DNA of 49,134 nucleotides from Phycisphaerae bacterium (lineage in GTDB: Bacteria; Planctomycetota; Phycisphaerae; SM23-33): contig JAGXKT010000018.1 in the NCBI GenBank assembly GCA_018335035.1, forward strand, positions 1-49,134, given 5' to 3'. The translations under genes were made by a program, and so were the position numbers. The notes beneath the pieces are model-generated. The model had not been told where the DNA came from, searched no databases, and worked only from the letters and a program-made list of their open reading frames with translations. Positions within the stretch are counted from its first letter, which is position 1; each line of letters opens with the position of its first letter. Positions 4,236 to 48,352 of the stretch are shown one piece after another.

Positions 4236-5276
4236 TTACCCCTTGGTGAGACCCAGCTCGGCCTCCATCGTCTCGGCCTTGGGCAGCTTGGCGCCGCGCA
4301 CCGCCACGATCGCCCCGGGCAGCCCACAGACGATCGGCACCAGCCGCGCCAGCAACGCCATCGCAAACACCTCGCTGGCGCCGACAGCCGGTGCATTGAC
4401 GAAGAAGTGCACAAACGCCGCCTCCATCACGCCGACGCCTCCGGGCGTGATCGGCACCGAGCCGATGATGTAGATCAGCGGGATGTACAGCAGGTACTGG
4501 TACCACGGAATCGCCAGCCCCAGACTCGCCCCGCACATCGCGATGGCGCCCACGAAGAAGGCGTGCGCCCCGAACGTCATCAGCACGGCACGGAACAGCA
4601 CGCCGATCCGCTTGCGATACAGCACGGCCGCGTCGCCCGCACGGGCGATGTGATGGGCCATCGGCAGACGCCCGTAGAGCTTGTCCAGGTGCAACACGCG
4701 ACGAAAGCGCCGGCTCAGCAGAAACACGAGAATGAACACCACCGCAACGGCAACGACGGCTGCGACGATGACCGCGTCGCGAATGTCAGCAAAGGTCTCC
4801 AGCCCCGCCAGCAGCGCCACGGCGACCATCGACCCGGCCAGCAGCGCCAGCTCCGTCATGCCCATAACCCGGTCGACGAAGATGCTCAATAACACGGCCG
4901 CCGTCTTCGGCGTGTGCTTGGCGACGTAATACGCCTTGACGATGTCGCCGCCGATGACGCCTGGCGCGACCGCATTGAAGAACTGCCCCAGAAACGTCAG
5001 GCGGACCACCTCCCACAGGTGAATGCGAATCCGCTGGATGCGCAGCAGCATCCACCAGCGTGCGGCGATCACCAGCAGCGACGCGGTGAAGCCGACGGCA
5101 CCGAGAGCCAACACAAGCCAATTGATGTCCCCGGCGATGGTCAACAGCCCCGGGGCGGTCTTACCGTCGATCTCGTAATCGTGCAGATGCACCTTCGTCA
5201 CCAGCCAGGCCAGCAGCCCGGCCGCGATCAACAGCTTCACCGACAGGACCAGTCGTTTTCGGAGCTTGGATTCCAT
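4236..5276 (-). CDS. Flippase-like integral membrane protein (UPF0104 / lysylphosphatidylglycerol synthase TM region family)
   Basis: This 346-residue protein has about eight or nine hydrophobic segments and matches the MprF-flippase/AglD-like family. The conserved family segment FLGQFFNAVAPGVIGGDIVKAY (rough residues 94-115) is clear, as is the late IGSVPITPGGVGVMEAAF region. Related domains flip or transport lipid-linked substrates at the cytoplasmic membrane. The catalytic aminoacyl-lipid synthase domain of MprF is absent, so this is a stand-alone transporter-type protein of unknown substrate. Start ATG 5276 has AAGG about 7 nt upstream. It is divergent from tadA. Confidence 0.8.
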   Translation of the reverse strand: MESKLRKRLVLSVKLLIAAGLLAWLVTKVHLHDYEIDGKTAPGLLTIAGDINWLVLALGAVGFTASLLVIAARWWMLLRIQRIRIHLWEVVRLTFLGQFFNAVAPGVIGGDIVKAYYVAKHTPKTAAVLLSIFVDRVMGMTELALLAGSMVAVALLAGLETFADIRDAVIVAAVVAVAVVFILVFLLSRRFRRVLHLDKLYGRLPMAHHIARAGDAAVLYRKRIGVLFRAVLMTFGAHAFFVGAIAMCGASLGLAIPWYQYLLYIPLIYIIGSVPITPGGVGVMEAAFVHFFVNAPAVGASEVFAMALLARLVPIVCGLPGAIVAVRGAKLPKAETMEAELGLTKG

Positions 5277-5403
5277 GGAGGGCCTTCGGAAAGGGCGGCA
5301 TTATAGCGGCCGCCGCGCCTCGCGGAAACGCCCAACTGCGCCGCCGCGGCGACGGGCGGAACCGCCCTTGGCCCGGCGCGGGCTACACGCTATCCTCGCC
5401 GAC

Positions 5404-5883
5404 GTGGACAGGGCAACCGAGACGGATTACGACGCCTGGATGGGCGCGGCCATCGAACAGGCCCGGGAGGCGCAACGCGCCGGCGACGTGCCCGTCGGCG
5501 CGGTCGTCGTCCGCGAGGGGCGCATCCTCGCGGCGGCACACAACCGCCGGATCATCGACCGTGACCCGACGGCGCACGCAGAGATGCTGGCGATCCGCGC
5601 CGCGGCGGCGGCCCGCGGCGACTGGCGTCTGAGCGGCTGCACGCTGGTCGTGACGCTCGAGCCGTGCTGCATGTGCGCCGGCGCGGTCGTCCTGGCGCGC
5701 ATCGACCGCCTGGTCTACGGCGCGACCGATCCCAAGGCCGGTGCGGCCGGCACCCTCTACGACATCCCGACCGACGATCGGCTCAATCACCACGTAAAGG
5801 TCGTCTCCGGCGTCCGCGCGGCTGAGTGCGGCGACCTGCTGACGGCGTTCTTTCGCTCGCAGCGAGCCGCGGGAAAGAAATAG
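5404..5883 (+). CDS. tadA: tRNA-specific adenosine-34 deaminase
   Basis: TadA converts A34 of tRNA-Arg(ACG) to inosine. This 159-residue protein shows the zinc deaminase signature HAE at 58-60 (His58 ligand, Glu60 proton shuttle) and PCCMC at 87-91 (Cys88 and Cys91 ligands). The GTG at 5404 was chosen because it places YDAWMGAAIEQA at the usual distance from the terminus. The longer open frame (from 5266) adds low-complexity Arg/Pro residues and overlaps the divergent flippase start. The ATG at 5440 would cut the first helix. No good Shine-Dalgarno is visible, so the exact start is uncertain. Confidence 0.93.
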   Translation: MDRATETDYDAWMGAAIEQAREAQRAGDVPVGAVVVREGRILAAAHNRRIIDRDPTAHAEMLAIRAAAAARGDWRLSGCTLVVTLEPCCMCAGAVVLARIDRLVYGATDPKAGAAGTLYDIPTDDRLNHHVKVVSGVRAAECGDLLTAFFRSQRAAGKK

Positions 5884-5896
5884 AGGCCCTTTATGC

Positions 5897-5924
5897 TTGC
5901 CGCGCACTGGTAAGTCGCTAGCAT
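5897..5924 (+). promoter_or_regulatory. Possible sigma-70 promoter for the amidohydrolase gene
   Basis: TTGCCG (5897-5902) and TAGCAT (5919-5924) are separated by 16 bp in the 112-bp gap after tadA. The match is modest and was made by eye in GC-rich sequence, so it is only a candidate. Confidence 0.3.
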
Positions 5925-5995
5925 GAAACGCGCCGCCCCCGCTGCATGACCCGTATACCTGTAGTGAGAGCCCCATGCCGGAAGGTGCCACGCGC

Positions 5996-7285
5996 ATGCG
6001 CAATGACGAGCTGTTCGAGCAACTAAACCGTATCCCGATCATCGACGTTCACAGCCACCTCGCGTGCGGCCGGATGTCCGCCGAGTCGCTGGATGACGTG
6101 ATCTTTTACCACATGCTGCGCTACCCCCTGCGCAGTGCGGGGATGGCCCATGGCGACCTCTGGCCGGGCAAGGACGCCGATGGCCTGCCCCGTGAGGCGC
6201 TGGCGCAACACTGGTTCCGAATCGCCCAGACGGGCTTCGGGCGGATTCTCAGGACCATCCTCCGCGATCTGTACGACTTCGACGAACCGCTGACGCCACA
6301 ATCGCTACCGCGGCTGGAGCAGCGTTTCGAGGCGTGCGTCGCGCAAGACAACTGGCCGCAACAGGTGCTGGGCAAGGCCAACATCGTGCGCATTTGCTCC
6401 AGCGAACACGGGAAATCGCAGCGGACAGGACCGGCCAGCGACATCATGCGCTTCACTGTCGAGGCGATGCCCTCCAGCGGACAGCACGAGCACAAGGGCT
6501 GGCAGGGACGCATCCACGGGTTGGCGAACGATCTGGGCCACGAGGCAAAGACCGCCGCCGACGTGTTCGCGGCCGTCAAGGCCTACTACGACGCACACAC
6601 TTGGCCGGACCTGCCCGTCCTCGTGGCGTGGGTGTCCTCTCAGGCGGACTTCACGCCCACCGACGAGGCGACGCTGGACCGGCTCGTCGCCCGCGCCGGC
6701 GGCGGCGAGCCGCTGACCCTTGGTGAAACGCGCCTGCTGGAAGGCGTCTTTGTCCGCGCGATGTGCGAGGCGGTCCACGCGTACGTCGACATCTTCCAGA
6801 TCTGCTACGGCGTGCAGTTCCTCCACGACGGCGCGGCTCGGGCCATCCAGCGCGGGTCGGACACCTTCGCCCAGACGTTCGGGTATTTGCTGGGCGAGTA
6901 CCCGGACCTGCACTTCAACATGCTCAACGGTTACGAGCCCGACGAGCCGATCTGGTGCGGGCTCTGCCAGGGCTACAGCAACGTGTCTCTGACAAGCCAG
7001 TGGTGGACGATGTTCTACCCCACGCCGATGCACACGAGTTGGTCGCGCCGCCTGGACATGGTCCCGCTGAACCGCCTGTGCGGCTTCCTCAGCGACGGCT
7101 GGTCGATCGACTATGCCTACGGGCGGGCATGGATGACGCGGCGCGTGCTTGCGAACGTGCTGGCCGAACGGATCAACGGCGGGCTGATGACCGCCGACGA
7201 GGCAATCGACACGGCGCGGACGATCCTCTTCGAGACGCCGCGGGAGCTGTTCCTGCCGAACGACGAGATCGGCGAGGCGTCCTGA
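5996..7285 (+). CDS. Amidohydrolase-superfamily protein resembling uronate (glucuronate) isomerases
   Basis: This 429-residue protein starts with a metal-site motif IPIIDVHSHL (residues 13-22, His19 and His21), typical of amidohydrolase-fold enzymes. The overall length and the C-terminal segment about a 'Gly-Phe-Leu-Ser-Asp-Gly' turn before a helical end (LCGFLSDGWSIDYAYGRAW) resemble uronate isomerase-like proteins common in Planctomycetes. A role in sugar-acid catabolism is an inference and the substrate is unknown. Two starts are possible. ATG 5996 was preferred because GGAAGGT sits 9 nt upstream, while ATG 5975 has no clear site. It is convergent with queD. Confidence 0.7.
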   Translation: MRNDELFEQLNRIPIIDVHSHLACGRMSAESLDDVIFYHMLRYPLRSAGMAHGDLWPGKDADGLPREALAQHWFRIAQTGFGRILRTILRDLYDFDEPLTPQSLPRLEQRFEACVAQDNWPQQVLGKANIVRICSSEHGKSQRTGPASDIMRFTVEAMPSSGQHEHKGWQGRIHGLANDLGHEAKTAADVFAAVKAYYDAHTWPDLPVLVAWVSSQADFTPTDEATLDRLVARAGGGEPLTLGETRLLEGVFVRAMCEAVHAYVDIFQICYGVQFLHDGAARAIQRGSDTFAQTFGYLLGEYPDLHFNMLNGYEPDEPIWCGLCQGYSNVSLTSQWWTMFYPTPMHTSWSRRLDMVPLNRLCGFLSDGWSIDYAYGRAWMTRRVLANVLAERINGGLMTADEAIDTARTILFETPRELFLPNDEIGEAS

Positions 7286-7307
7286 GCCGCACGACAACGA
7301 GGCATCG

Positions 7308-7667
7308 CTAGGCGCCCCGGTAGACGCAACGACTCACGGTGGATTCCCAAACCGTCACGGCCGACAGCGGTAGTGTCGGCGCGATACGGTCCCAGATGTA
7401 CTTCGCCAGCATCTCCGTCGTCGGAGTCTCCAGACCCGGAACGTCGTTGAGCAGGGCGTGGTCCAGCGTGTCGATCACCGGCGCGACGGCGGCCGAGATC
7501 TGCGAGAAGTCCATCACCCAGCCGCGGTCGGCGTCCACCTCGCCTGCGACGTGGACATCCACGCGGTAGCTGTGTCCGTGCAACTGACGGCACTTGTGCC
7601 CCTGCGGCGCCGCTTGAAGGTGGTGGGCGGCCTCGAAGTGAAATGTTCGCACCAATTCAGCGTGCAT
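7308..7667 (-). CDS. queD: 6-carboxy-5,6,7,8-tetrahydropterin synthase
   Basis: QueD turns dihydroneopterin triphosphate into 6-carboxytetrahydropterin, the second step of queuosine/preQ1 synthesis. The 119-residue protein has the three zinc histidines (His15 in FEAAHH, and His30 and His32 in QLHGHSY), catalytic Cys26 (GHKC), His70 in TLDHALLN and Glu108 in VWEST. ATG 7667 is supported by GGAG 8 nt upstream. A GTG at 7679 is the alternative. It lies 42 bp downstream of queE on the same strand, so the two are probably co-transcribed. Confidence 0.93.
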   Translation of the reverse strand: MHAELVRTFHFEAAHHLQAAPQGHKCRQLHGHSYRVDVHVAGEVDADRGWVMDFSQISAAVAPVIDTLDHALLNDVPGLETPTTEMLAKYIWDRIAPTLPLSAVTVWESTVSRCVYRGA

Positions 7668-7709
7668 CGTCGTCTCCACGTGTTTACTGAGCCCGGGCGG
7701 TCGACCGGC

Positions 7710-8357
7710 TCAGATACCCTCGCTCCGTCCCGGCCAGAGAATCTTATGTACCTGGAGACCCAGGCGCACATCCAGGCGGTCGGCGAGAAGCCAGCCGGCC
7801 AATTCGGCCGGGTCCACCTCGCCGAACACCGGCGAGAACGTCACCGCCACGCGCTCGTTCAGCGCGTAGCGCCCCACCACGTCACAAGCATACGCGTAAT
7901 CCTCCCCGTCGGCGATGACGAACTTCACTTCGTCGTCGCGGCCGAGCGCCTCGAGGGCGTCCCGGCGCGTGGTGCCGGCCTGGCCGCTGGCGGGACATTT
8001 GACGTCGACGATCTTGATCACGCGCGCGTCGACGTCCGACAGGTCGCGTGAACCGTTCGTCTCCAGAAGTGTGCGGTACTCGGCGTCGCAGAGGCGCCGC
8101 AGCAGTTCCGGCGTCGCCTGCTGGACGAGCGGTTCGCCGCCGGTAACCAGCACGCGCCCGCAGCGCAGCGTGGCCACGCGGTCCATCAGGTCGTCGATCG
8201 TCACGTCCTGTCCGTCGCCCCGGGCGGCCGGCGTGTCGCACCAGCGGCAGCGCAGGTTACACCCAGCCAACCGCACGAAGGCGAAGCGCCACCCCGTCCA
8301 GGTCGTCTCCCCCTGGATGCTGCAGTAAATCTCATTGACCTTTATGCGCCGGCTCAC
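7710..8357 (-). CDS. queE: 7-carboxy-7-deazaguanine synthase (radical SAM)
   Basis: QueE contracts the pterin ring of 6-carboxytetrahydropterin to 7-carboxy-7-deazaguanine using SAM and a [4Fe-4S] cluster. In this 215-residue protein the cluster motif is canonical C-x3-C-x2-C: Cys33, Cys37 and Cys40 in GCNLRCRWCDT. The N-terminal VNEIYCSIQGET and the SAM-region TGGEPL are family hallmarks. The start is a GTG at 8357, the only one that includes the conserved N-terminus. It is the first gene of the queE-queD pair, which faces away from the glycosyltransferase at 8423. Confidence 0.94.
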   Translation of the reverse strand: MSRRIKVNEIYCSIQGETTWTGWRFAFVRLAGCNLRCRWCDTPAARGDGQDVTIDDLMDRVATLRCGRVLVTGGEPLVQQATPELLRRLCDAEYRTLLETNGSRDLSDVDARVIKIVDVKCPASGQAGTTRRDALEALGRDDEVKFVIADGEDYAYACDVVGRYALNERVAVTFSPVFGEVDPAELAGWLLADRLDVRLGLQVHKILWPGRSEGI

Positions 8358-8422
8358 GGAGCGTATTCTACCGCACAGGCGCCGGCGCGCGGAGCCCTTC
8401 CGCCGCCGGCGGCGGTGACGCC

Positions 8423-9751
8423 ATGAGACGACGCCCCGTCCTGACCATTGTGATTATGGCAGCGCTGGTGCGACTGGTGCTGCTGGCAACGGCGTGGCAC
8501 GCTCCGCAGCGCCTGTTGACGCCGGACTCCTACGAGTACGCCGCCCTGGCGCGGACACTGGGCGAAGACGGCGTCTTCGCCCGCGGGGAACGCCCGGAGA
8601 TCTTCCGCACGCCGGGCTATCCGCTGTTCCTGCTGATCGGGACGCTCTTCGGCAGCGCCGGCGTCGTAACGGTCGCGATCGTGCAAATTGTCGCTGACGT
8701 GGTGACAGTGTACCTGACGTACCTGCTGGCGCTGCTGGTCGCCGATCGCCGAGCAGCCCTGTGGGCGGCCGGCTGGCAGGCGGTCTGCGTCGTGGCGGTC
8801 GTCTCGTCGGTGCGGATTCTCTCCGACGCGCCGTACACATGCCTGCTGATGCTGGCGTTATGTCTGCTGGCGGTGCATCTCAAGACGGGGCGGTGGTGGT
8901 CGCTTCTGGCCGCAGCGGGCGTCATCGCTGCCGCGTGCTACGTTCGGCCGGTCGGGCTGGCAATGGCGGCGGTGATGGGTCTGTCGCTCCTGCCCCGGCC
9001 GAAGCGATGGCGGCGGCTGGCCGCCTTTGCCGGCGTCGTGGTCGTACTGCTGGCGCCGTGGGTGATCCGCAACCGCATCGTCGCCGACTACACGGGCTTT
9101 TCCACCTTCGCGACGGATTCGATGTACTACTTCGCCGTGCCCGCCCTGACAGCCGAGCGCAAGGGGACGGATGCCGCCGCCGAGCGCGCCTGGCAGCGGC
9201 GCCACGGCGCCAGCGCCGAGCGGAACGCGGGCCTGTCGCCCGGTCGGGCCGCCGCCTGGCGGGCGCGCCGGGCGCGGCAGGCGATCGCCGAGCATCCATG
9301 GGCGTACACGCGGCTGCACCTCCGCGGCTGTGCGGGCGTCTACCTGCCCGCCGCCCCATCGCTTCTGGAAATCGCCGGGCGTACGACGGGCCAACGGGGC
9401 ACACGAGCCGTGCTGCGGCGCGAAGGGCTTGCGGCGGCCGTGCGGCACTACTTCGGCGGCGACACCGTCGCGCTGCTCCTGGCAGCGCCGCTGGTGGCGC
9501 TTCTGGGGTTGAAATACGCGGCCGTGGCGATCGGTGCGGCGGGGCGCCTGTTCGCGCGGCCGACCGGGCGGGGACGGCTGCGCCTCCCGGCGGAGGCGTG
9601 GCTTCTGATCGGCGTGGTGCTCGTCGGCACGTTGCTTCCGGGCCCGTTCGGCCTGCCGCGGTATCGCGTGCCGCTGGGACCGATTCTGAGCATTGCGGCC
9701 GGCTGCGGCATCGCCGCCCTGACACGTCGCCTGCGCCGGCGGACCAACTAG
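8423..9751 (+). CDS. Polytopic membrane glycosyltransferase (GT39/ArnT-like family)
   Basis: The 442-residue protein has roughly ten hydrophobic segments. The extracytoplasmic loop after the first segment contains DSYEYAALAR (about 33-42), where the GT39/PMT/ArnT fold carries its acidic catalytic residue, and a PGYPLF segment follows. Such enzymes transfer a sugar from a polyprenyl-phosphate donor to lipid, glycan or protein on the outer face of the membrane. Donor and acceptor cannot be read from sequence. ATG 8423 has GGCGGTGA upstream. Its stop overlaps the convergent rnfD stop by 4 bp. Confidence 0.75.
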   Translation: MRRRPVLTIVIMAALVRLVLLATAWHAPQRLLTPDSYEYAALARTLGEDGVFARGERPEIFRTPGYPLFLLIGTLFGSAGVVTVAIVQIVADVVTVYLTYLLALLVADRRAALWAAGWQAVCVVAVVSSVRILSDAPYTCLLMLALCLLAVHLKTGRWWSLLAAAGVIAAACYVRPVGLAMAAVMGLSLLPRPKRWRRLAAFAGVVVVLLAPWVIRNRIVADYTGFSTFATDSMYYFAVPALTAERKGTDAAAERAWQRRHGASAERNAGLSPGRAAAWRARRARQAIAEHPWAYTRLHLRGCAGVYLPAAPSLLEIAGRTTGQRGTRAVLRREGLAAAVRHYFGGDTVALLLAAPLVALLGLKYAAVAIGAAGRLFARPTGRGRLRLPAEAWLLIGVVLVGTLLPGPFGLPRYRVPLGPILSIAAGCGIAALTRRLRRRTN

Positions 9752-11028
9752 CGCTTCGGTCGTCTCTCGCCAAACGGATGCACGAGCGAGCCCAACCACG
9801 CCAGGCGCCGCCTGCCCAGCACGCGGGGGCGCCACATCCGCTCGATCCACGGCGCGAACGTGTTCATCGCCAGCACGGCGGCGTAGGCGGGAATGGGCAC
9901 AGCGGTGACGTAGAGTTGAAGCCCCATCGCCAGCGCGCCGGCCGCGGCGCCGAAAATCACCTGTCCACCGACCGTCGCCGGACGGGACGACATCTCGGTA
10001 ATCAGGAACGTTGCGGCCAGGACCGTTGCGCCGCTAAGGAGCTGGTAGTTGACGTAGGTGAACCCGACGTCCAGCCCCTCGACCAACAGCGGAAACCAGA
10101 CGGTCTCGACGGTCTGGCTTGGACCGGCCAACTGCACCGGCGCCACGGCGGCGACACACCACGCCGACGCCAGGAACGCCACCGGCAACTGCCAGCGGAC
10201 GTAGTCGCGATACACGAGATAGCCGCCGGCGACCAGCAGCACGATGATGCACGTCTCGCCGATGCCGCCCGGACGCGTTCCGAAGACCAGGTCGCGCATG
10301 GGTGGCAGGCGGTCCGGCGACGGGGCATGCAGCGCCGCCGGGGCGGCGCCCGGCATCTCCAGGCGTGGCATGGCCAGACCGCTGTAAGCCGGCGGCGCGT
10401 CGGTCGGTCGGTTCGTCAGCTTCGCCAGCGCCCGCCGCGGATGCGGCAGACGAAAGGCATCGGCCCCTTCCGGGGCGGAGCGATCCTGCCAGCCCCGGTA
10501 GTCCATGGGCGTCCGGGCGTCGGTTACGTCGCCGACCAGCAGGCGGTTTTGCGCCAGAACCGGCCAGTCCCCCGGCGCCAGCAGTGCCGGGAACATCACC
10601 GCCACGGCGAACCGCCCCACCAGCGCCGGCTGCCAGAGAAAGTGCCCCACGCCGCCGAAGACGGCCTTGCCGATGATGACGGCGAACGCCGAGGCGATCA
10701 CGGCCACATACCACGGCGTAAACGCCGGCAGGGTCAGCGCCAGCAGGACACCGGTGAGGTAGGCGTGAGACCGTCCGCCCAGCGCCGGCGTGTGCGCGAC
10801 GCGATACGTGACGTGCTCGATGATCACGCAGGCCGCCACGCAGATGCACGCCACGACGGCCGCACGCCAGCCAAACAGCACGACCCCGGCCAGCAGCGGT
10901 GCGCAGGCGGCGCCCAACGTAACCAGAAACACCCGTCTGGCGCCTTCCGGCGCACGGAGAAACGGCGCCTCGAAGGCGGGAAGGCGGCGTGTGCGCATGA
11001 CGGTTGCGGCGGTAAGTTCATCAGCCAT
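9748..11028 (-). CDS. rnfD: RnfD-like membrane electron-transport subunit
   Basis: RnfD is an integral FMN-carrying subunit of the ion-pumping Rnf complex. This 426-residue protein aligns by eye with RsxD/RnfD along its length: KAVFGGVGHFLWQPALVGR (121-139), the loop with ARTPMD (171-176) that corresponds to SQATPLD of E. coli RsxD and keeps the FMN-bearing Thr (Thr173), LLSGATVLAATFLIT near the C-terminus, and the WRPRVLGRRR end. The TDPVT motif after the SGAT segment is altered to TEMSSRPAT. It overlaps rnfC by 8 bp, and a strong site (GGAGGG, 6 nt spacing) lies inside rnfC. Only rnfC and rnfD are present here; rnfA, B, E and G are not. Confidence 0.88.
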   Translation of the reverse strand: MADELTAATVMRTRRLPAFEAPFLRAPEGARRVFLVTLGAACAPLLAGVVLFGWRAAVVACICVAACVIIEHVTYRVAHTPALGGRSHAYLTGVLLALTLPAFTPWYVAVIASAFAVIIGKAVFGGVGHFLWQPALVGRFAVAVMFPALLAPGDWPVLAQNRLLVGDVTDARTPMDYRGWQDRSAPEGADAFRLPHPRRALAKLTNRPTDAPPAYSGLAMPRLEMPGAAPAALHAPSPDRLPPMRDLVFGTRPGGIGETCIIVLLVAGGYLVYRDYVRWQLPVAFLASAWCVAAVAPVQLAGPSQTVETVWFPLLVEGLDVGFTYVNYQLLSGATVLAATFLITEMSSRPATVGGQVIFGAAAGALAMGLQLYVTAVPIPAYAAVLAMNTFAPWIERMWRPRVLGRRRLAWLGSLVHPFGERRPKR

Positions 11029-12328
11029 CGGCGACCCTCCCCACGGCGCGGTTGAGTTGGTTCATACGCTGCGTCAGCGGCAGCCGCGCCGGACAGATAT
11101 ACGAGCAGACACCGCAGGCGATGCAGGCGCGAACGCCGAGCCGCGCGGCGCGGTCCACGTCCGCCAGCTCGAAGGCGTCGTTCAGCGCCGCGACGTTCAA
11201 CCGTGCCGGACAATGCGCCACACACCACCCGCAGCGAATGCACGGGCCCGGATGCGGCGGCGTCTCGACGGCCGGGGCCAACACGGCGTCGCTGGCCGGC
11301 GAGGTCACCGTCGCCTCGTCGCAGCGCAGCGCCGTCATCGCCCCGCCGTGAAGCACGGGCGGACCCGGCGCGCCAACCAGGTCGACGCATCCGACGCCGA
11401 ACGGCACGAAAAAATTCCCGACACGCGACGTCCGCTCGCCGGCGACGGTCACCACCCGCCCGGACGGACGGACCCCGCACGCGACCTGCGCGTACGTCGC
11501 GAAGCACGTCGCCGCGTCCACCACCGCTGCTCCGACGTCCGTCGGCGACCCGCCCGGCGGGGTCTCGCACCGCGTGAGAATCTTGACCAGCATCACGTCG
11601 GCGCCCGTGGGGTACTTGTGCTCCAGGGCGACCGGCTCGATGCCGAGTTCCCGCGCGGCGTCCTCGGCCGGGTGGTAATCGTCCGTGCGACGGCGGTCGG
11701 CGGCGAGATACACCGTTTCGGCGCCGATCGCCCGGCCCAGCAGCATCAACCCGCCGGCCACCTGCCGGCCTCGCGCGCGGAGCAGCGCGTGGTCGGCTGT
11801 CACGTAGGGCTCGTGCTCCATGACGTTGGCGATCAGAACGCGGCAGCCGGCGGCGCGGGCCCGCTCGATCCACCCGCTCAGCGGCTCGGCGCCGCGGCGG
11901 AAGGTCGTCAGAGCACCATCAGCGATCCGCTCGCGCACCTGCGCCGCCGCCAGCTCGCGCCACCCGGCGGTCGGCGGCTCGGCCGGCAACTCAGGCAGAT
12001 GCTCCAACTCCACCAGCTCGACGGCGTCGGAATGCGCCGGCCCGTAGCGCCCCGCCGTCGCGACGCGCGTCAGTCGCGAAACCGTCCCCGTCGCCGGAGC
12101 ATACACGTCCACGGCTGCGTCGTCCGACGCGGCACCCAGCCGCTGCCCCGCGACGACCCGTTGCCCGGCAGCGACCACCGGCTCGGCCGGCGGGCCCCCG
12201 CACGGCGCCAGCGGCACCCGTAGACGGGCCGGCACCGGCCCAGGACGCACGGGCGCATCCAGCGTAGCGTCCTTCAGATCCGGCAGATCAATCCCGCCGG
12301 TGAACGTTGCGTAGCGCCGAGCGAGCAT
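11021..12328 (-). CDS. rnfC: RnfC-like Fe-S subunit lacking the NADH/FMN glycine-rich loop
   Basis: This 435-residue protein has the RnfC architecture: N-terminal FTGGIDLP, a barrel-sandwich region (YAPATGTVSRL), the EPYVTADHALL segment (about 173-183), an SLBB-like region, and two C-terminal [4Fe-4S] motifs at Cys363/366/369/373 and Cys402/405/408/412. In RnfC of Rnf complexes the middle domain binds FMN and NADH through GLGGAGFPT. Here the aligned stretch (about 137-152) reads as unrelated sequence, and the following AECEPY is MEHEPY. NADH oxidation by this subunit is therefore doubtful. ATG 12328 fits the family N-terminus; another ATG lies nine codons upstream. Confidence 0.85.
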   Translation of the reverse strand: MLARRYATFTGGIDLPDLKDATLDAPVRPGPVPARLRVPLAPCGGPPAEPVVAAGQRVVAGQRLGAASDDAAVDVYAPATGTVSRLTRVATAGRYGPAHSDAVELVELEHLPELPAEPPTAGWRELAAAQVRERIADGALTTFRRGAEPLSGWIERARAAGCRVLIANVMEHEPYVTADHALLRARGRQVAGGLMLLGRAIGAETVYLAADRRRTDDYHPAEDAARELGIEPVALEHKYPTGADVMLVKILTRCETPPGGSPTDVGAAVVDAATCFATYAQVACGVRPSGRVVTVAGERTSRVGNFFVPFGVGCVDLVGAPGPPVLHGGAMTALRCDEATVTSPASDAVLAPAVETPPHPGPCIRCGWCVAHCPARLNVAALNDAFELADVDRAARLGVRACIACGVCSYICPARLPLTQRMNQLNRAVGRVADG

Positions 12329-26973: not shown

Positions 26974-28029
26974 TCACCGCCACGCCAGCGCGCCGGTCGG
27001 GCAGGCGTCGACGCACGCGTCGGTCGAGACGGTCAACGCCTCGGCCAGCGAGCGCCCCATCGCGGGGCGCACGCGCACGCCGAAGCCGCGCCCGACGAAG
27101 GCCATCCCCACCGGCTCCCCACGGGCGGCCGTGATCTGCACGCACAGCCCGCACGCGATGCACTTGCCCGGCTCGTGGATCACGGCCGGGTGCTCGGCAT
27201 CGATCTCCAGCCGGCGGCGTTCGCCGGCGCCGCGCGGGACCGTGGCCCCGACGGTTTCGGCCGCCTCGCGCAGCGCACACGTCGCGGCCGCGCGGCAGTC
27301 GCAATGCAGGCAGCGGGCCGCCTCGGCGCAGGCCTCGGCGTCCGTGTAGCCCTCCGCCCGCGACGCGACGACCCGCCCGGCCGGGTTGGCCTGAGCCAGC
27401 AGCACCGCCATCTCGTCGGCATCCAGCCGCCCCATGTGCACGCAGACGCTGCGCCGTCGCGGCGCCGGGCGCGGCGCCGGTGCGATGCCGCGCTGCTGCG
27501 CGGCACGGACGACGTAGTGCATCAGTTCCCCGATGGCGACCGGCGCGTCGTGGCGCCCGCGGCGGCAGGCCGTCTCCGGGCGGTCCGTGTCGACCTCATC
27601 CGGCGCCGGCAAGCCGCCGTCTGCTCCCGCCGCCAGCGTTGCCGCCGCGGCGGCGATGTCCCCGGCCGCAACGTGCCGGATCATACGCGGGATGTGCCGC
27701 CCGAGCGGGTCGGCCAGTTGGCACGGCGCGTCGCAGTCGCCGAGGTGATCGCCGAGCAGCAGCTCGACGGCCCGGCGGCGGGCGGCGCCGACCGCCTCGT
27801 CCGTTTCGCTGGCGATGACCATGCCCTCCGTGCAGGTTATGGCGCAGGCGGGCACCAGCCGGTCCCAGCCGGCGATGCGAACCACGCACGCCATGCAGGC
27901 GGTCTGCGGCTCCAGCCCGTCGCGATGGCACAGCGTGGGAATGGCGATGCCGAGCTGCCGAGCGGCCGTCAGAACCGTCGCGCCGTCCGGCACCGTCACC
28001 GGTCTGTCGTCCATCGTCACCGTCGTCAT
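26974..28029 (-). CDS. 2Fe-2S / NuoG-like and GltD-like iron-sulfur protein
   Basis: The 351-residue soluble protein combines three parts. Residues 1-75 are a [2Fe-2S] ferredoxin with C34-x10-C45-x2-C48-x13-C62. Residues ~90-190 resemble the Fe-S helical domain of GltD-type subunits (GDCDAPCQ, IPRMI, ACRRGRHDAPVAI), but several cluster cysteines of that domain are missing. Then come RCLHCDCR and a C-terminal CxxCxxCx42C motif (KCIACGLC, and Cys of TDAC), the pattern of the NuoG N4 cluster, ending CPTGAL. It would relay electrons beside the NuoEF fusion encoded upstream. The intervening GxxExxY cassette separates the two genes. Confidence 0.82.
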   Translation of the reverse strand: MTTVTMDDRPVTVPDGATVLTAARQLGIAIPTLCHRDGLEPQTACMACVVRIAGWDRLVPACAITCTEGMVIASETDEAVGAARRRAVELLLGDHLGDCDAPCQLADPLGRHIPRMIRHVAAGDIAAAAATLAAGADGGLPAPDEVDTDRPETACRRGRHDAPVAIGELMHYVVRAAQQRGIAPAPRPAPRRRSVCVHMGRLDADEMAVLLAQANPAGRVVASRAEGYTDAEACAEAARCLHCDCRAAATCALREAAETVGATVPRGAGERRRLEIDAEHPAVIHEPGKCIACGLCVQITAARGEPVGMAFVGRGFGVRVRPAMGRSLAEALTVSTDACVDACPTGALAWR

Positions 28030-28041
28030 AACGTGTCGTTT

Positions 28042-28070
28042 ACCACAGAGAACACTGAGAACACGGAGAA
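28042..28070 (+). repeat. Inverted repeat, left copy (ACCACAGAG type)
   Basis: The top strand reads ACCACAGAG AACACTGAG AACACGGAG in three nine-base steps. The reverse complement of a related word occurs at 28503-28534, so the two copies flank the GxxExxY gene in opposite orientation. A third relative lies at 48353-48385. Confidence 0.7.
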
Positions 28071-28073
28071 AAC

Positions 28074-28538
28074 CTACTCGTCGTAGCCGTTCATGACGCG
28101 CTGCACGCCCGACACGAGCCGAGGCACGTTAAAGTTGATCAGCAAACCAAGCCGCAACCCGGCGAGCTTCAGATACGTCAACAGTTGCGCGCGGTGGACG
28201 TCCGTAACCTGCTGGACGGATTTGAGCTCAACGATGACAACGTCCTCGACGAGCAGGTCCACCCGGTAGCCGCAGTCGATTTTCAAACCGCGGCAGGAAA
28301 CGGGCAACCCCTTCTTCCGTTCCACGCGGCGCCCGCAATCGGCGAGTTCATGCGCCAAGCACGCTTCATACGTCGACTCAAGCAGTCCCGGTTCCAGCGC
28401 TTTGTGGACCTCGATCGCCGCGCCGATGATCGCCTTACTGATCTTGTTAAGTTCATCTAACGCGACGGTTCGGCCACCTGCGCCGCGCCGCTCGATGCCG
28501 TTGTCTTCTTTGTGCACTCCGTGTCCTCTGTGGTTCAT
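28074..28538 (-). CDS. GxxExxY-family protein (PD-(D/E)XK nuclease-like fold)
   Basis: The 154-residue protein carries the name motif GLLESTYE (about 52-59) and, further on, a strand with DLLVEDVVIVELKSV (about 103-117), the D...ExK core of PD-(D/E)XK nuclease-like folds, then QLLTYLKLAGLRLGLLINF. The biological role of the family is not established. The first ~20 residues (NHRGHGVHKED) translate the flanking repeat, so the true start may be a GTG near ALDELNKIS. It lies inside a same-strand redox operon but has no obvious link to it. It is probably an inserted unit. Confidence 0.85.
   Translation of the reverse strand: MNHRGHGVHKEDNGIERRGAGGRTVALDELNKISKAIIGAAIEVHKALEPGLLESTYEACLAHELADCGRRVERKKGLPVSCRGLKIDCGYRVDLLVEDVVIVELKSVQQVTDVHRAQLLTYLKLAGLRLGLLINFNVPRLVSGVQRVMNGYDE
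28503..28534 (-). repeat. Inverted repeat, right copy (ACCACAGAG type)
   Basis: The bottom strand reads AACCACAGAG GACACGGAG TGCACAAAG AAG. It is the inverted partner of the copy at 28042-28070 and overlaps the annotated N-terminal codons of the GxxExxY gene. Confidence 0.7.
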
Positions 28539-28542
28539 GTCG

Positions 28543-30894
28543 TTACTCCACGCATACGGCATCGGCGGGGCAGACGGACCGGCACGTCCCGCAGCGGACG
28601 CATTTGTCCGTGTCGATCTCGTGTCGTTCGTGCGGGCGCGAGGCGATCGCGTCGGCCGGGCAGTGCTGAGCGCATCGCGTGCAGCCGATGCAGTCGTCGG
28701 TGATCGTGTAGGCGATCAGTGCCCGGCATCGCCCGGCCGGGCAGTGCCCGGCGAGGTGCGCCTCGTACTCGTCGCGGAAATGCGCCAACGTGGAGACGAC
28801 GGGATTCGGCGCGGTCCGGCCCAGCGCGCAGAGACTGCCGCGGCGGACGCCCTCGGCGAGTTGCTCAAGCCGGTCGAGGTCGCCGTCGCGCCCGTCGCCC
28901 TCGCAGAGGCGCGTGAGGATCTCCAACATCCGCCGCGTGCCGACCCGGCACGGCGTGCACCGCCCGCACGACTGGTCCTGTGTGAATTCCAGAAAGTACC
29001 GCGCGATCTCGACCATACAGTCGGTCTCGTCGAGCACGACAAGCCCGCCGGAGCCCATGATGCCGCCGACGGCTTGGAGGGCCTCGTAGTCCACGGGCGT
29101 CTCGGACAGCTCGGCCGGAACGCACCCGCCGGACGGCCCGCCGATCTGCACCGCCTTGAAGCGACGCCCGTCAGCGACACCGCCGCCGATATCCTCGACG
29201 ATCTCGCGCAGCGTGATGCCCATGGGCACCTCGATCAGCCCGCCGCGTGCGACCTTGCCGGCCAGGGCGAAGACCTTCGTGCCCTTGCTGGCCTCGCGCC
29301 CGATCGCGGCGAACGCGTTCGCCCCGTGGCGCAGAATCCACGGGACCAGGGCGTAGGTCTCGACGTTGTTGATCAGCGTCGGTCGGCCCCACAGCCCCTG
29401 CCGGGCCGGGTACGGCGGGCGCAGGCGCGGCATGCCCCGCCGGCCTTGGATCGAAGCCAACAGCGCCGTCTCCTCCCCGCAGACGAACGCCCCGGCACCC
29501 CGATGGACCGTCACCGTCAGCGATGCGTCCGAGCCGCAGATGCGCTCGCCCAGCAGCCCGCGCTGCCCGGCACGGGCGATCGCCTCGCCGAGGCGCGCCA
29601 CGGCCAGGGGATACTCGGCGCGCACGTAGAGATGTGCCTCGCACGCCCCGACGGCGTATGCGGCGATCGTCAACCCCTCCAGCACGCGATACGGGTAGGA
29701 CTCCAACAGCATACGGTCCATGAACGCGCCGGGGTCGCCCTCGTCGCCGTTGCAGACGACGTACTTGACCGCGCCCGGCGCGTCGTGAACGTGGCGCCAC
29801 TTGAGCCCCGTCGGATACCCCGCGCCGCCCCGGCCGCGCAAACCGCTGTCGTCAATCTCCTGAACCACGCGCCGCGGCGATAGCGCCTCGATGCAGCGAC
29901 GCAGTGCGACGTAGCCGTCCCGCGCCAGGTACTCGTCCAGGTCCAGCGGATCGAGAAAGCCGCAGTGCTCCGTTGCCAGGTGTTGTTGCTTGTCCAGGAA
30001 CGCCGCCACCGGCTCGTCGCGCACGTTCATCGTGTAGCGCGTCACGGGGCGCCAAGTCTCATCCGTCAGCAGGCGGTCCAGCGCGCGGGACACACGCCGC
30101 ACGACCCGGCGCGGCAGGTGCCGCGCGCGGAAATGCCGCTCGATGATGGCCTCGGCATCTTCCGGCTGCACGCGGGCGTAAAACGCCGTGTCGCGCCCGG
30201 GTTGGGCGATCTCGACCAGCGGCGTCTGGTGACACAACCCCACGCAGCCGACGCGCTTGACGCGTGCGGCCGCGCCCGTCGCACCCAGCGCGCGCTCGAA
30301 CGCCTCATAGACCTTGCCGCTTCCGCGAGCGACGCAGCACGAGCCCAGCCCGATGCGCACCTCGCCGGCCGAGCCGTCGCCGCCGCGCCGCGGCTTGCGC
30401 CGCCGCCCGCCCCGGCGCTCGTGCGTAAGGAAGTCGTGCAGCATCTGCGCGACGGCCTCGTCGTCGGCCGTCAGATGCCCGTAGGTGACCTCGCCGATCT
30501 GCACGGCCGGGGCGAGCGTGCAGCAACCCAGGCAGGCGACCTTCTGTACGGTGAACAGCCCGTCGGCGTCCGTGTCCTGCCCCTCGGCGAGGTGCAGGTG
30601 CTTGCAGAGCGTCTCGTGCACGGCCGCGGCGCCCTTGACGTGACAGGCCGTACCGTGACAGACGCGGATGATGTGCCGCCCCACCGGGCGATGGCGAAAT
30701 TGCGCGTAGAACGTCGACACGCCGGTCAGCTGCGCCGGCGGGATCTCCGTCCGGGCACAGACGCGCTCCAGCGCCTCGGCGGGCAGGTAACCGTAGTGCT
30801 CCTGCAACTGCTGGCAGATCGGTACGACGGCATCGGGCGCCCCGCCGGTCCGTTCGATCACCGCGTCCACAATGCTGACGTCGACGTCGCTCAT
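28543..30894 (-). CDS. NuoE-NuoF fusion: NADH-oxidising flavo-iron-sulfur subunit (HydC/HydB-like)
   Basis: This 783-residue fusion has four parts. The NuoE thioredoxin-like domain (1-160) has [2Fe-2S] ligands C79, C84, C121 and C125. A second thioredoxin-like [2Fe-2S] domain (178-255) has C186/C187, C217 and C221. The NuoF core (315-690) has an intact NADH/FMN loop GLRGRGGAGYPTG (351-363), DEGDPGAFMDR, an SLBB domain and the [4Fe-4S] motif CGRCTPC. Two C-terminal [4Fe-4S] motifs, CIGCTRCAQHCP and CVRCGTCRSVCP, complete it. The layout matches HydB of bifurcating hydrogenases with HydC fused in front. No hydrogenase active-site (H-cluster) gene is present. It overlaps the propeller gene by 4 bp (ATGA). 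Confidence 0.93.
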   Translation of the reverse strand: MSDVDVSIVDAVIERTGGAPDAVVPICQQLQEHYGYLPAEALERVCARTEIPPAQLTGVSTFYAQFRHRPVGRHIIRVCHGTACHVKGAAAVHETLCKHLHLAEGQDTDADGLFTVQKVACLGCCTLAPAVQIGEVTYGHLTADDEAVAQMLHDFLTHERRGGRRRKPRRGGDGSAGEVRIGLGSCCVARGSGKVYEAFERALGATGAAARVKRVGCVGLCHQTPLVEIAQPGRDTAFYARVQPEDAEAIIERHFRARHLPRRVVRRVSRALDRLLTDETWRPVTRYTMNVRDEPVAAFLDKQQHLATEHCGFLDPLDLDEYLARDGYVALRRCIEALSPRRVVQEIDDSGLRGRGGAGYPTGLKWRHVHDAPGAVKYVVCNGDEGDPGAFMDRMLLESYPYRVLEGLTIAAYAVGACEAHLYVRAEYPLAVARLGEAIARAGQRGLLGERICGSDASLTVTVHRGAGAFVCGEETALLASIQGRRGMPRLRPPYPARQGLWGRPTLINNVETYALVPWILRHGANAFAAIGREASKGTKVFALAGKVARGGLIEVPMGITLREIVEDIGGGVADGRRFKAVQIGGPSGGCVPAELSETPVDYEALQAVGGIMGSGGLVVLDETDCMVEIARYFLEFTQDQSCGRCTPCRVGTRRMLEILTRLCEGDGRDGDLDRLEQLAEGVRRGSLCALGRTAPNPVVSTLAHFRDEYEAHLAGHCPAGRCRALIAYTITDDCIGCTRCAQHCPADAIASRPHERHEIDTDKCVRCGTCRSVCPADAVCVE

Positions 30895-32768
30895 GGCGTC
30901 TCCTGCGTATGCTCTGCGTCCGCAATGCAGTACACGTGCGTCCGGCCACGGATGTAGATCCGCCCGTCCTGAAACGCCGGCGAGCCGTAGACCGCCTCGC
31001 CCAGCGGGCAGGTCCGCACCGGTGCGGCAATTCGCTTGCCTGTTGTCGGGTCCTGCACGATGCCGCCGACGACCGGCTCGCCGTCGTTCGCGTCCACAGC
31101 CGCAGTGTCGTCGAAGTCGAACGGGCCTGTCGAGACGACGTACGTCACGCCCTGGGTGTCGGTCAGGTGGAGCGTCTCGCCCACGAGCGACGGCGAAGCG
31201 TTGAACTGTTGCCCCCCGAAGTCGCGCAACCACTGCGCCTCGCCCGTGGCCGCGTCGTAGCACGCCAGCGTGCCCCAACTCGATAGTGCGAACACGCGCC
31301 GCCCGTCGCTGACGGGCGAACAGATCGTCGGCGTCACCTCGTTCGCCTGCCAGATGACGCGCTGCCGCCCGTCGGACAGCTCGACCGCGCCGCGCAGGGC
31401 GAAGACGTAGGCGTTCGGCACGGCCACGATCACCCGATCGCCGAGGACGACCGGCGACGGCGCCACGTCGGGACCGCCGGCGTCCGCCTGCCAGAGAATG
31501 CGCCCGTCGGCGGGGTCGTGCGCGATCACGAGCGGGTTGCCCACGGTGATGAGTTGCTCGCGTCCGGCCAGCTCAGCCACGACAGGCGTGGTCCAGGAAT
31601 CCGTCACCGGGCGCGGGACGGACGCCAGCGTCTCACCGGAGGCCGGGTCCAGCAGCAACAGTCGCGACCGCCACGTACCCGGCTTGTCGGCGTCGAAAGC
31701 ATCGTCGTACTGATCGTATTGGACGATCAACCGTCCGTCGTGCATGACCAGCGACGTGGCGAACCCGTAGGCACTGTCCGGCGTGCCGAGGTTGCGATGC
31801 CAGCGGCGCTGTCCGTCGAAGTCGAAGCACACCAGATCGCCCGTGGGGAAGATCGCGCAGACGTAGCGGCCGTCGGTGACGGGGGTGCTGGCGGCCCAGC
31901 CGGTCCCCATGGATTCATCGAACTCCGGGCTCCGCCCGCCGGCCGGGACGGTGCGCGTCCAGAGCCGCTGGCCCGTGTCGGCATCCAGGCAATACACCTC
32001 GCGTTGCTCGCTCGTGCCGCCGGTCAGAAAAACGCGTTTCGCCCAGACGATCGGCGAACTCTTGCCGGGCAGCGGGATCGCGTCGGAGCGCCAGAGGATG
32101 TTCTCGCCGGCCGGAGCGTTCCAGTCCGTCGGAACGTTTCGATGGACGACGACGCCGCGCCCGCCAGGCCCGCGGAATCGCGCCCAGGGCGTCTGCTCAA
32201 CGGTGGCGACCTCGACCGGCCGTACGGGCGGCCGTGAGGGGGGGCTCAGCGTCCGCGGAGCGGGGATCGCCGCAACGCCCGCGACGCCCACGGCAGCGAG
32301 CCCCACCCCGCACGCGGCGACGGCGAGCCGCCCGCGCCGCGCGGCGCGTTCGGCCCTCTCGCGGTTCGGGGCGGCGCCGGCGACGCGCGCCGGGCGACGC
32401 CGCAGCCGCAGTGCGATCGCCCCGGCCGCCAGCGCCGCGCCAGCCGCGGCACAGACCACGTACGCCCCGATCGCCAGACGCCGGCGTCGCGCGAAGTACG
32501 CCGTGCGCAACTCGGCGTCCAGCGTTCGCAGGCGCTTGACCAGCGCCGCGCGGGCGGCCGGGTCGTCCCGCGGCGTCCGGGCCAGCTCGGCCTTCAACGC
32601 CGCCCAGCGGGGCGAATCCAGCGGGTGATCGCCGTAGCCGCGCAGCACAAACAGCACCAGCAGCGCCGAAACCGCCAGCGCGACCGCCCCGGCCACGCCG
32701 GCCGTCGCCGCGACCGCCCGATACCAGCGCTCGCGGCGGTTCGTCGTGTTGTCCGACGTCTCCGTCAT
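30891..32768 (-). CDS. Membrane-anchored PQQ-like beta-propeller protein B
   Basis: The 625-residue protein begins with three hydrophobic segments (about 19-45, 101-123, 148-170) and ends in a large extracytoplasmic beta-propeller (about 195-620). The propeller is recognised by recurring blades such as VYCLDADTGQRLWTR, LLLLDPASGETLAS, DPADGRILWQ and ACYDAATGEAQW, whose tryptophans dock the blades. There is no visible PQQ-dehydrogenase active site, so it may be a scaffold rather than an enzyme. It lies between the polyferredoxin (17-bp gap) and NuoEF (4-bp overlap), so a structural role in the same complex is likely. Confidence 0.82.
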   Translation of the reverse strand: MTETSDNTTNRRERWYRAVAATAGVAGAVALAVSALLVLFVLRGYGDHPLDSPRWAALKAELARTPRDDPAARAALVKRLRTLDAELRTAYFARRRRLAIGAYVVCAAAGAALAAGAIALRLRRRPARVAGAAPNRERAERAARRGRLAVAACGVGLAAVGVAGVAAIPAPRTLSPPSRPPVRPVEVATVEQTPWARFRGPGGRGVVVHRNVPTDWNAPAGENILWRSDAIPLPGKSSPIVWAKRVFLTGGTSEQREVYCLDADTGQRLWTRTVPAGGRSPEFDESMGTGWAASTPVTDGRYVCAIFPTGDLVCFDFDGQRRWHRNLGTPDSAYGFATSLVMHDGRLIVQYDQYDDAFDADKPGTWRSRLLLLDPASGETLASVPRPVTDSWTTPVVAELAGREQLITVGNPLVIAHDPADGRILWQADAGGPDVAPSPVVLGDRVIVAVPNAYVFALRGAVELSDGRQRVIWQANEVTPTICSPVSDGRRVFALSSWGTLACYDAATGEAQWLRDFGGQQFNASPSLVGETLHLTDTQGVTYVVSTGPFDFDDTAAVDANDGEPVVGGIVQDPTTGKRIAAPVRTCPLGEAVYGSPAFQDGRIYIRGRTHVYCIADAEHTQETP

Positions 32769-32785
32769 CGCCTGGTGACTCGTCC

Positions 32786-34396
32786 TCAGTCTGTTGCGTG
32801 CAGTTCGGCCGGCGGGCGGGCGCCCTTACGTTCAAGCCGCCGCGCGTGGTCCACCGGGCAGCTCGCGTAGCATCGCCCGCACGACAGGCACAGCGCCCGG
32901 TCGGGCGCGTAGTCCTCGCGGCGGCGACGCACGGCCAGCGAGACGAGCTTGAGCGCCACGACCAGGGCAATGAAGCCCGACGCCACGGGCGTCGCCCAGG
33001 CGAAGCTGCGCCGCACCGCCCGCCCGTGAGCCAGCAGCATGTCCACCGGCACGTCGCTGCCGGCGAAGGCCTCCGTGACGTCGCTGTCGCCGCGGACGGC
33101 GCCGTGGGCGGCCAGCTCGCGGTGAACCGCCTCGGCGCGGGCGACGGTGGGGTGCATGCGGGCGACGCGCCCGGCCAGCCATGCGCCACCCCAGGCGCCG
33201 GCGGCGGTCAAAACCGGCACGACCAGCAGCAGCGCCGCCAGCGTCAGCTTGCCGCGGCGGCGCGGCGCGGGGCGCCCGCCGGTGTTCGGTGCGCGGATCG
33301 CGCCGTACGGGCAGGCGCTTTCGCACAGCCGGCAGCGGATACACGCATCCGGCGTGATCGTCGCGTGCCGCCACGAGAGGCGCGACAGCGGGCGAAGAAT
33401 GGCGCCGTACGGGCACAGGAAGCGGCAATACGGCCGGGCGAGGAACACGCCCAATACCAGAACCCCGGCGCCGATTAGCAGCATGATGACCGGCCCGCTG
33501 AGGCGGAAGATGCCCACGAACGGGTCCTGGCGGCAGATCAGGAACCCGCCGCCCGTCGTCGCCAGCAGCACGGCCGCGGCGAGATACACGTACGCGAAGA
33601 GCCCCAACCCGTGTCCCAGCCAGGCGGGCAATTGGACGGGCTTCAGCGCGACGGCCTCCTGGATCGCACCGAGCGGGCAAACGGCCGCGCAGAACGTCCG
33701 CCCGAACAGCAGCGTCGCAACCAGCGGCAGGGCGAAGAAGGCCACGATTACCCACGGCACACCGTGGGCAAACCGCAGCACGGGGCGCATCTCCGTGCGG
33801 ACAAGCTCGCCCAGTGGCACGGGCGGCGCGTCGCCGGGCGGGGCGATGCGCTCCCGTCCGATCCGCCCCAGCGTTCGCTTGCTGTCCGGGCCGACCCACA
33901 ACGATAGGACGAAGTCGCGCCCCCGCCCGCTCGTCTCGGCGGCGGCGAAATCGCCGGCACGGGCGCGCCATGCCTCGGCGATGCGCTCGGCGCTCAGGCC
34001 GTGCGCTTCGGCGGCCGCGGCGTCGGGCGTGACCAGCGCGCGGACGTCGAACACGGGGCAGACGCGCTGGATCGCGCCGATCGGGCAGACGCAACCCCGC
34101 CGGTAGAAGCCGAAGTACCCCAGCGCCAGCAGCGTCAGCACGACCAGCCCGCCGCGCGAGCGGAAGCGCAGCGCCGCGGCGCTCGCCACGACGAGAAACG
34201 CCGCCAGAACGGCCACGTCCACGTATTGCATCGTCCGCGACCGCGGCGCCGGGCTGGGCACGTCCGGCGGGACGTAGTCTTCGCTGAGTTCCGGCACGCT
34301 GAAACGCTGCTCGGCGACCAGATGCGTCGCCGCTGAAGCGATGACAACACCGGCAGCAACCGGCAGAACCAGCAGCATCCACCGGCGGCGTCTCAT
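32786..34396 (-). CDS. NapH/NosR-like membrane polyferredoxin
   Basis: The 536-residue integral membrane protein has about six spans. Cys motifs on cytoplasmic loops are CVCPIGAIQRVCP (102-113), FCAAVCPLGAIQE (236-247) and YCRFLCPYGAI (323-333). Two [4Fe-4S] ferredoxin motifs follow, CIRCRLCESACP (352-362) and, at the C-terminus, CLSCGRCYASCP (about 510). NapH and NosR types pass electrons between the quinol or cytoplasmic side and periplasmic proteins. The periplasmic-loop region 115-215 has no recognisable FMN domain. It overlaps the Tat ferredoxin gene by 4 bp (ATGA at 34393-34396). Confidence 0.88.
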   Translation of the reverse strand: MRRRRWMLLVLPVAAGVVIASAATHLVAEQRFSVPELSEDYVPPDVPSPAPRSRTMQYVDVAVLAAFLVVASAAALRFRSRGGLVVLTLLALGYFGFYRRGCVCPIGAIQRVCPVFDVRALVTPDAAAAEAHGLSAERIAEAWRARAGDFAAAETSGRGRDFVLSLWVGPDSKRTLGRIGRERIAPPGDAPPVPLGELVRTEMRPVLRFAHGVPWVIVAFFALPLVATLLFGRTFCAAVCPLGAIQEAVALKPVQLPAWLGHGLGLFAYVYLAAAVLLATTGGGFLICRQDPFVGIFRLSGPVIMLLIGAGVLVLGVFLARPYCRFLCPYGAILRPLSRLSWRHATITPDACIRCRLCESACPYGAIRAPNTGGRPAPRRRGKLTLAALLLVVPVLTAAGAWGGAWLAGRVARMHPTVARAEAVHRELAAHGAVRGDSDVTEAFAGSDVPVDMLLAHGRAVRRSFAWATPVASGFIALVVALKLVSLAVRRRREDYAPDRALCLSCGRCYASCPVDHARRLERKGARPPAELHATD

Positions 34397-35001: not shown

Positions 35002-35261
35002 GTGGGCTCTCCCTTGTGACGTCGCGCGGCCGGCAGGGCGCAGTCGCTCAGGGCCCCGCAACTCGCGCAGCGCGAGGCGTTGATGCAGCGCGTCGGAGAA
35101 GGCGCCTCCCAGGGTCGAACCAGCGCCCAGGCGCCGGCCGCCACGGCCGCCAGAACGCCGCCGCGCGCGACGGTCCGCAACAGCTCGCGCCGCGACAGAT
35201 CGCTTCGCGAGGCCGCTGCATCGGCCGGCGACCGCTTCGTCGTTCGGGGCATGCGTGTCAT
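34998..35261 (-). CDS. Small Tat-exported protein with a C-x5-C-x2-C-x5-C motif
   Basis: The 87-residue protein has a twin-arginine signal (LSRRELLRTVARGG, 22-35, then a hydrophobic run) and a 30-residue mature tail holding C59, C65, C68 and C74 followed by ALPAARRHK. Four closely spaced cysteines after a Tat signal suggest a folded Fe-S or metal site, since Tat exports folded cofactor proteins. I recall a similar small protein beside NapGH-like genes in other phyla but cannot give a characterised member. It is coupled to both neighbours by 4-bp overlaps. Confidence 0.72.
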   Translation of the reverse strand: MTRMPRTTKRSPADAAASRSDLSRRELLRTVARGGVLAAVAAGAWALVRPWEAPSPTRCINASRCASCGALSDCALPAARRHKGEPT

Positions 35262-37806: not shown

Positions 37807-37887
37807 ACACGCCCGACCGCCCGCGAACCGAACGAAACCATAGGCCCTCGACCGGCATCTGGCGTAGGATGGAAGGCGGTGGAACTT

Positions 37888-48274: not shown

Positions 48275-48293
48275 CGACCTGACCGTACAATCG

Positions 48294-48309: not shown

Positions 48310-48325
48310 AGGGCAGCCCATTCCG

Positions 48326-48346: not shown

Positions 48347-48352
48347 CTACTT

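Follow-up and report, generated by a model that had tools for sequence, protein, structure and literature searches.

Positions 1 to 49,134 of contig JAGXKT010000018.1 (assembly GCA_018335035.1), from a Phycisphaerae bacterium of the order SM23-33, form the stretch of DNA analyzed here; this whole stretch, 49,134 nucleotides (nt) long, is 'the window'. Side by side within it lie genes for relatives of two subunits of the Rnf complex, RnfC and RnfD, which we call RnfC* and RnfD*; the label RnfC2 is avoided, being already in use for the MetVF subunit. RnfC* keeps the motifs for two [4Fe-4S] clusters and has lost the loop that in RnfC binds flavin mononucleotide (FMN) and nicotinamide adenine dinucleotide (NAD, reduced form NADH). 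RnfD* has lost the threonine to which FMN is attached, and its riboflavin contacts are altered. The two proteins keep company with each other wherever both are seen, they evolve under purifying selection, and they occur in genomes that have no RnfA or RnfE—independently, that is, of the Rnf core. The pair is probably an uncharacterized kind of membrane electron-relay module, carried by a planctomycete class whose members are for the most part uncultured.

Both proteins are placed in the RnfC and RnfD families, though both score below the curated NCBIfam cut-offs for Rnf; RnfC* reaches 212.6 bits against TIGR01945, for example, where the cut-off is 245.95. In Pfam, RnfC* matches RnfC_N (59 bits), Complex1_51K (66.6 bits) and Fer4, and the sole domain in RnfD* is NQR2_RnfD_RnfE (PF03116; 208 bits). 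RnfC* also matches PDB 7zc6_C (E 8.5e-46). The AF2 models (pLDDT, the predicted local distance difference test, 81 for RnfC* and 78.5 for RnfD*) find their best Foldseek matches in the C and D chains, respectively, of 8ahx, 9eri and 7zc6, and judging from these models the Rnf fold is retained by both. The start of rnfD* and the stop of rnfC* share 8 nt, and no rnfA, rnfB, rnfE or rnfG lies beside them: the locus consists of C and D only. An original prediction, made from the letters of the window alone, had placed such a pair at 9748–12328 without the other rnf genes, and in both respects it holds.

In the Rnf complexes of Clostridium tetanomorphum and Acetobacterium woodii, RnfC binds FMN and NADH, and the two clusters of RnfC form the bridge to riboflavin in RnfD (PMC9588780, PMC11889175, PMC12174285). 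The loop concerned, GxGGAxFPTxVK, can be recognized as the FMN/NADH loop because of the family relation to NuoF/Nqo1, and its residues are invariant, or nearly so, across an alignment of 21 canonical RnfC proteins. RnfC* of the window has 'TTFRRGAEPLSGW' in its place, and the motif is kept in none of 27 RnfC* proteins from the order and none of 20 from the class. Canonical Glu162 is mostly Gln in RnfC*, and Asn202/Lys203 are mostly Arg/Arg. Both CxxCxxCxxxCP cluster motifs are intact in the window protein, and all eight cluster cysteines are kept throughout RnfC*. The missing loop, the change of AECEPY to MEHEPY and the presence of both cluster motifs had all been predicted, and alignment bears out each of them.

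The FMN-attachment Thr of RnfD is T153 in C. tetanomorphum and T156 in A. woodii (PMC9588780, PMC11889175), and in all 19 canonical RnfD proteins compared a Thr stands ahead of a conserved Pro (ATP[LM]; 'SQATPL' in E. coli). The original prediction had RnfD* keep this residue; in fact the window has His196–Pro197, and Thr is missing at this position from at least 28 of 30 RnfD* proteins of the order and from 19 of 20 of the class. Thr205 was considered as a substitute and set aside, as the position is Thr or Ser in just 24 of the 30 and there is no ApbE context. Riboflavin in A. woodii RnfD is contacted by N123, through a hydrogen bond, and by D249 (PMC11889175). The first of these is Gln in all 30 RnfD* of the order, and Asn in none of the 20 of the class; the second is Glu in 29 of 29 in the order, although most other families have Asp here. 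The Arg at the FMN ring (except in one genus) and the Glu of GIGET are retained in the order, and hence RnfD* could, to go by these residues, bind flavin non-covalently. His88 and His129, both invariant in the order, were also tried, as haem ligands, and rejected: His88 is lost in some families. The N-terminal arm of RnfD, buried in RnfC in 7zc6 (PMC9588780), is present too, with P22, A26, P27 and E28 invariant in the RnfD* proteins compared.

Among the 38 genomes of the order, 30 have an orthologue of RnfD*; identity is about 50–64% for 29 of these, and the remaining one, in G029, is a fragment at a contig end. The canonical RnfD proteins in these genomes are only about 35–40% identical to RnfD* of the window, and in a tree of RnfD proteins RnfD* forms one clade (support 0.93), apart from the canonical RnfD of the order. 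Every locus that shows both genes has them adjacent and on the same strand, and the ratio of non-synonymous to synonymous substitution (dN/dS), calculated pairwise for six close pairs, is 0.15–0.27: purifying selection. Elsewhere in the class, RnfD* was found in 60 of 397 genomes from other families (E <= 1e-70), and the 20 class loci examined all have RnfC*, always with the replaced loop. A sample of the phylum gave RnfD* search matches in 3 of 392 genomes, of which the two besides the window's own keep canonical motifs. The named members are metagenome-assembled genomes of Phycisphaerae and other Planctomycetota; no relative of the pair turned up in the viral contigs searched, and only distant RnfD-type matches (<34% identity) in the plasmid records. 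One genome of the order without the normal pair, G016, has a very divergent RnfC/RnfD pair on a long branch (L128, 5741–8364), in which the cluster motifs are retained and the NADH loop is absent.

Genome-wide statements here rest on family searches. Contig C73 of the window's genome (2.74 Mb in 82 contigs, 97% complete) holds, at 4581–10967, a complete canonical rnfCDGEAB operon, whose RnfC has GLGGAAFP and CECEPY; RnfC* and RnfD* are therefore a second, divergent RnfC and RnfD. (The canonical rnfC contains an in-frame two-copy tandem repeat, TGGCGAGCG[AG]AG[TC]CGAGCC, at L003 5291–5333, found nowhere else in the genome.) Some other bearers of the pair have no RnfA/E. A search for RnfA/E (PF02508) found none in five pair-bearing genomes of the order; two of these, G001 and G007, which belong to two families and are each about 90% complete, are also without RnfG-type (FMN_bind) proteins and the flavin transferase ApbE. 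In one family, f104, PF02508 is missing from 16 of 16 sampled pair-bearing genomes, among them three assembled as single contigs (G430, G454 and G646) and one in four contigs (G507). The Rnf core, therefore, is not needed by the pair.

Table 1. Features of the RnfC*/RnfD* pair in the window
Feature	Coordinates	Strand	Remarks
RnfC* gene (rnfC)	11021..12328	-	435 amino acids, ATG at 12328; RnfC-like Fe-S subunit without NADH/FMN loop
RnfD* gene (rnfD)	9748..11028	-	426 amino acids, ATG at 11028; RnfD-like membrane subunit
Replaced FMN/NADH loop, RnfC* residues 139–153, ALTTFRRGAEPLSGW	11870..11914	-	Aligns with GxGGAxFPTxVK
Altered AECEPY segment, RnfC* residues 167–180, ANVMEHEPYVTADH	11789..11830	-	AECEPY to MEHEPY
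[4Fe-4S] motif 1 of RnfC*, CIRCGWCVAHCP	11207..11242	-	Cysteines conserved across all RnfC*
[4Fe-4S] motif 2 of RnfC*, CIACGVCSYICP	11090..11125	-	Cysteines conserved across all RnfC*
Conserved N-terminal arm of RnfD*, APFLRAPE, expected to sit in RnfC*	10945..10968	-	
RnfD* signature, FGGVGHFLWQPALVGR	10612..10659	-	Gln133 in place of riboflavin-contacting Asn
RnfD* site of lost FMN-attachment Thr, LPHPRRALAKLT	10414..10449	-	His196 before anchor Pro197
RnfD* FLITEMSSRP	9979..10008	-	Glu345 in place of second riboflavin-contacting residue, Asp

How might such a pair work? Tentatively, we favor the view that RnfC* and RnfD* form a self-sufficient two-subunit module, derived from RnfC and RnfD, that relays electrons at the membrane. 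RnfC*, no longer binding FMN or NAD(H), would take up (or give off) single electrons through its two [4Fe-4S] clusters, presumably filled, its putative donor being a cytosolic protein such as ferredoxin, flavodoxin or a dehydrogenase. Electrons would then flow to the cytoplasm-facing pocket of RnfD*, with its changed riboflavin contacts and whatever ligand it may hold; FMN on the periplasmic side would no longer be covalently attached; and the electrons would leave RnfD*, perhaps with some movement of ions, for an acceptor in the membrane or the envelope. Conservation of the eight cysteines, while the canonical FMN/NAD loop has been lost throughout RnfC*, argues for this view, as do the constant adjacency of the two genes, the low dN/dS, the retained folds and N-terminal arm, and the persistence of the pair where RnfA/E are missing. 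A subunit resembling RnfD has, moreover, been predicted in published work to function although it has no flavin Thr (PMC10979944). Several things weigh against it. The analysis turned up no donor or acceptor for the pair, and the genes nearby, for a PpiC-type isomerase, an aminotransferase, QueE/QueD and ScpB, are no obvious redox partners. The quinone helices of NqrB are not recognizable in RnfD*, so quinone as acceptor is only a guess. And, given that both riboflavin contacts have changed, RnfD* may be free of flavin altogether. The term 'electron-relay module' comes from the original prediction and remains the best reading; the host complex proposed with it, a NuoEF/NapH locus, is not supported, as explained below. 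With slightly more reserve still, we would regard the pair as an undescribed class of two-subunit redox complex, one with Fe-S clusters and no NADH site, covalent flavin or Rnf core.

The main rival dispenses with the electron-transfer chain: RnfD* would be a channel or transporter, and RnfC* an Fe-S redox sensor, or a structural partner, that gates it. This is unlikely, in our judgment, and still deserves to be taken seriously. The RnfD/NqrB fold is related to that of urea and ammonium transporters (PMC12174285), and RnfD* itself has a weak Foldseek match to a urea transporter (E 0.057). The covalent FMN site is gone, both riboflavin contacts are changed, and NqrA provides the example of an RnfC homologue that lost its cofactors. 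Both cluster motifs of RnfC* are strictly kept, however, which suggests electron transfer, and the Arg and Glu of the FMN site are mostly retained in RnfD*.

Improbable by comparison is the idea that the pair swaps into canonical RnfABGE in place of RnfC and RnfD, diverting the electrons of ferredoxin from NAD+. The subunits are homologous, certainly, and the genome of the window has a complete Rnf for them to enter. But the pair is found where there is no RnfA/E to join, in G001, in G007 and in all 16 genomes of f104, and in RnfD* there could be no attachment of the FMN through which RnfD accepts electrons from RnfG. As alternative subunits of the genome's own Rnf, then, RnfC* and RnfD* are largely refuted.

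A partnership with the NuoEF/NapH locus at 27–39 kb, of which the pair would be the membrane part, fares no better and, if anything, a shade worse. The locus (26974–39105) encodes a fused NuoE-NuoF-ferredoxin protein together with HoxU-like, Fer4 membrane and PQQ (pyrroloquinoline quinone)-propeller proteins. Orthologues of this fusion turn up commonly within the order, and L095 and L096 carry a set of genes much like this one. The locus lies on the same contig and strand as the pair, 19 kb away in the window, and two genomes, both from a single other genus, have the NuoEF orthologue 12–15 kb from the pair. Such spacing, 12–19 kb, is seen only in these two genomes and the window, however, with other genes intervening, and the locus has Fer4 membrane proteins of its own. 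The original prediction had the pair work with this locus, put at 15 kb away, but their occurrence shows no association: of the order's 30 pair-bearing genomes 17 have the NuoEF orthologue, as do 5 of the 8 that lack the pair (Fisher p = 1.0), and eight of the 13 pair-bearing genomes without it are at least 90% complete. In G021 a different NuoF-type NADH dehydrogenase gene, which includes a ferredoxin domain, shares the strand of RnfD* and follows it 1.6 kb downstream (L105, 5343–7157), the only such case seen.

Decay of a duplicated rnf operon—an origin the original prediction had allowed for, should a complete Rnf exist elsewhere, as it does—is scarcely credible for the pair. Although the operon on C73 and the lost motifs might suggest it, the orthologues that 30 of the order's 38 genomes and several families possess, the separate RnfD clade, the low dN/dS, the invariant cysteines and the shared replacements rule it out.

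The surroundings of the pair look like old, vertically inherited housekeeping synteny, and they name no redox partner. Different genera share one arrangement of genes: PpiC-type isomerase, class I/II aminotransferase, RnfC*, RnfD*. PpiC is close to the pair in 17 of the order's loci, and likewise in families f4 and f109. Downstream come QueE/QueD, in 11 loci of the order, or ScpB, directly, in families f4, f106 and f109, both identified from sequence only. Radical S-adenosylmethionine QueE was considered as an electron client and dropped, since queE/queD usually lie behind a glycosyltransferase gene on the opposite strand, hence synteny only. In the window, queD and queE are beside the pair at 7308–8357, and what appear by sequence to be queC (47519–48310) and the start of queF (48818 on) lie at 47519–49132.

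The pair amounts to a natural dissection of the Rnf pump: the RnfC–RnfD half and its Fe-S clusters are kept, the NADH site and FMN attachment are stripped away, and in many pair-bearing genomes no other part of the Rnf core is detected. RnfD* could be studied without RnfABGE, which makes the pair relevant to whether ions are moved by RnfD/NqrB itself. If our reading is correct, this half of the pump, RnfC–RnfD, is able to act by itself and does so as a core function in Phycisphaerae. Annotation pipelines that take rnfC plus rnfD as proof of an Rnf complex will, in these bacteria, err.

Among known systems, Rnf (RnfABCDGE, or Rsx) shares most with the pair: the RnfC and RnfD folds, the C–D gene order, two [4Fe-4S] motifs in RnfC, the N-terminal arm of RnfD and the GIGET region. 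RnfC* differs in having no FMN/NAD loop, and RnfD* in having no FMN Thr, in the replacement of the riboflavin-contacting Asn by Gln or His and in the absence of the full pair of contacts, Asn and Asp; nor is the full RnfABCDGE set present at the locus, RnfABGE being dispensable. The sodium-translocating NADH:quinone oxidoreductase, Na+-NQR, resembles the pair in that NqrA, too, has lost the FMN/NAD function of RnfC, and NqrB is homologous to RnfD. NqrA has lost the Fe-S clusters, however, whereas RnfC* retains them; NqrB has the FMN Thr, riboflavin and the quinone-site helices, the last unrecognized in RnfD*; and NqrDE (PF02508) is missing in several pair-bearing genomes. RnfC-like proteins that work outside Rnf, as RnfC* does, include RnfC2 of the MetVF-type methylenetetrahydrofolate reductase of acetogens, and PrdC. 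Neither is known to be paired with an RnfD-like membrane protein, and RnfC2, encoded beside metVF, has the NAD site, whereas RnfC* is without the NAD loop and has other neighbors. The Nqr/Rnf-like flavinylation systems (Meheust 2021, PMC8238504; PMC10979944) also have, apart from any full complex, an RnfD-like membrane subunit that lacks the flavinylation Thr, but theirs is fused to an NqrF-type NAD domain (PF00175) and has an FMN-bearing NqrC/RnfG partner. RnfD*, in contrast, has only PF03116, its partner RnfC* has no NAD site, and G001 and G007 are without FMN_bind and ApbE. No description of the pair, nor 'rnfCD' in text, was found in the literature searched, most subscription papers being outside its coverage. 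The pair is thus not an Rnf complex, nor Na+-NQR, nor a published flavinylation system, lacking at least one of the tested defining features of each. What it is closest to is RnfC–RnfD, taken out of Rnf.

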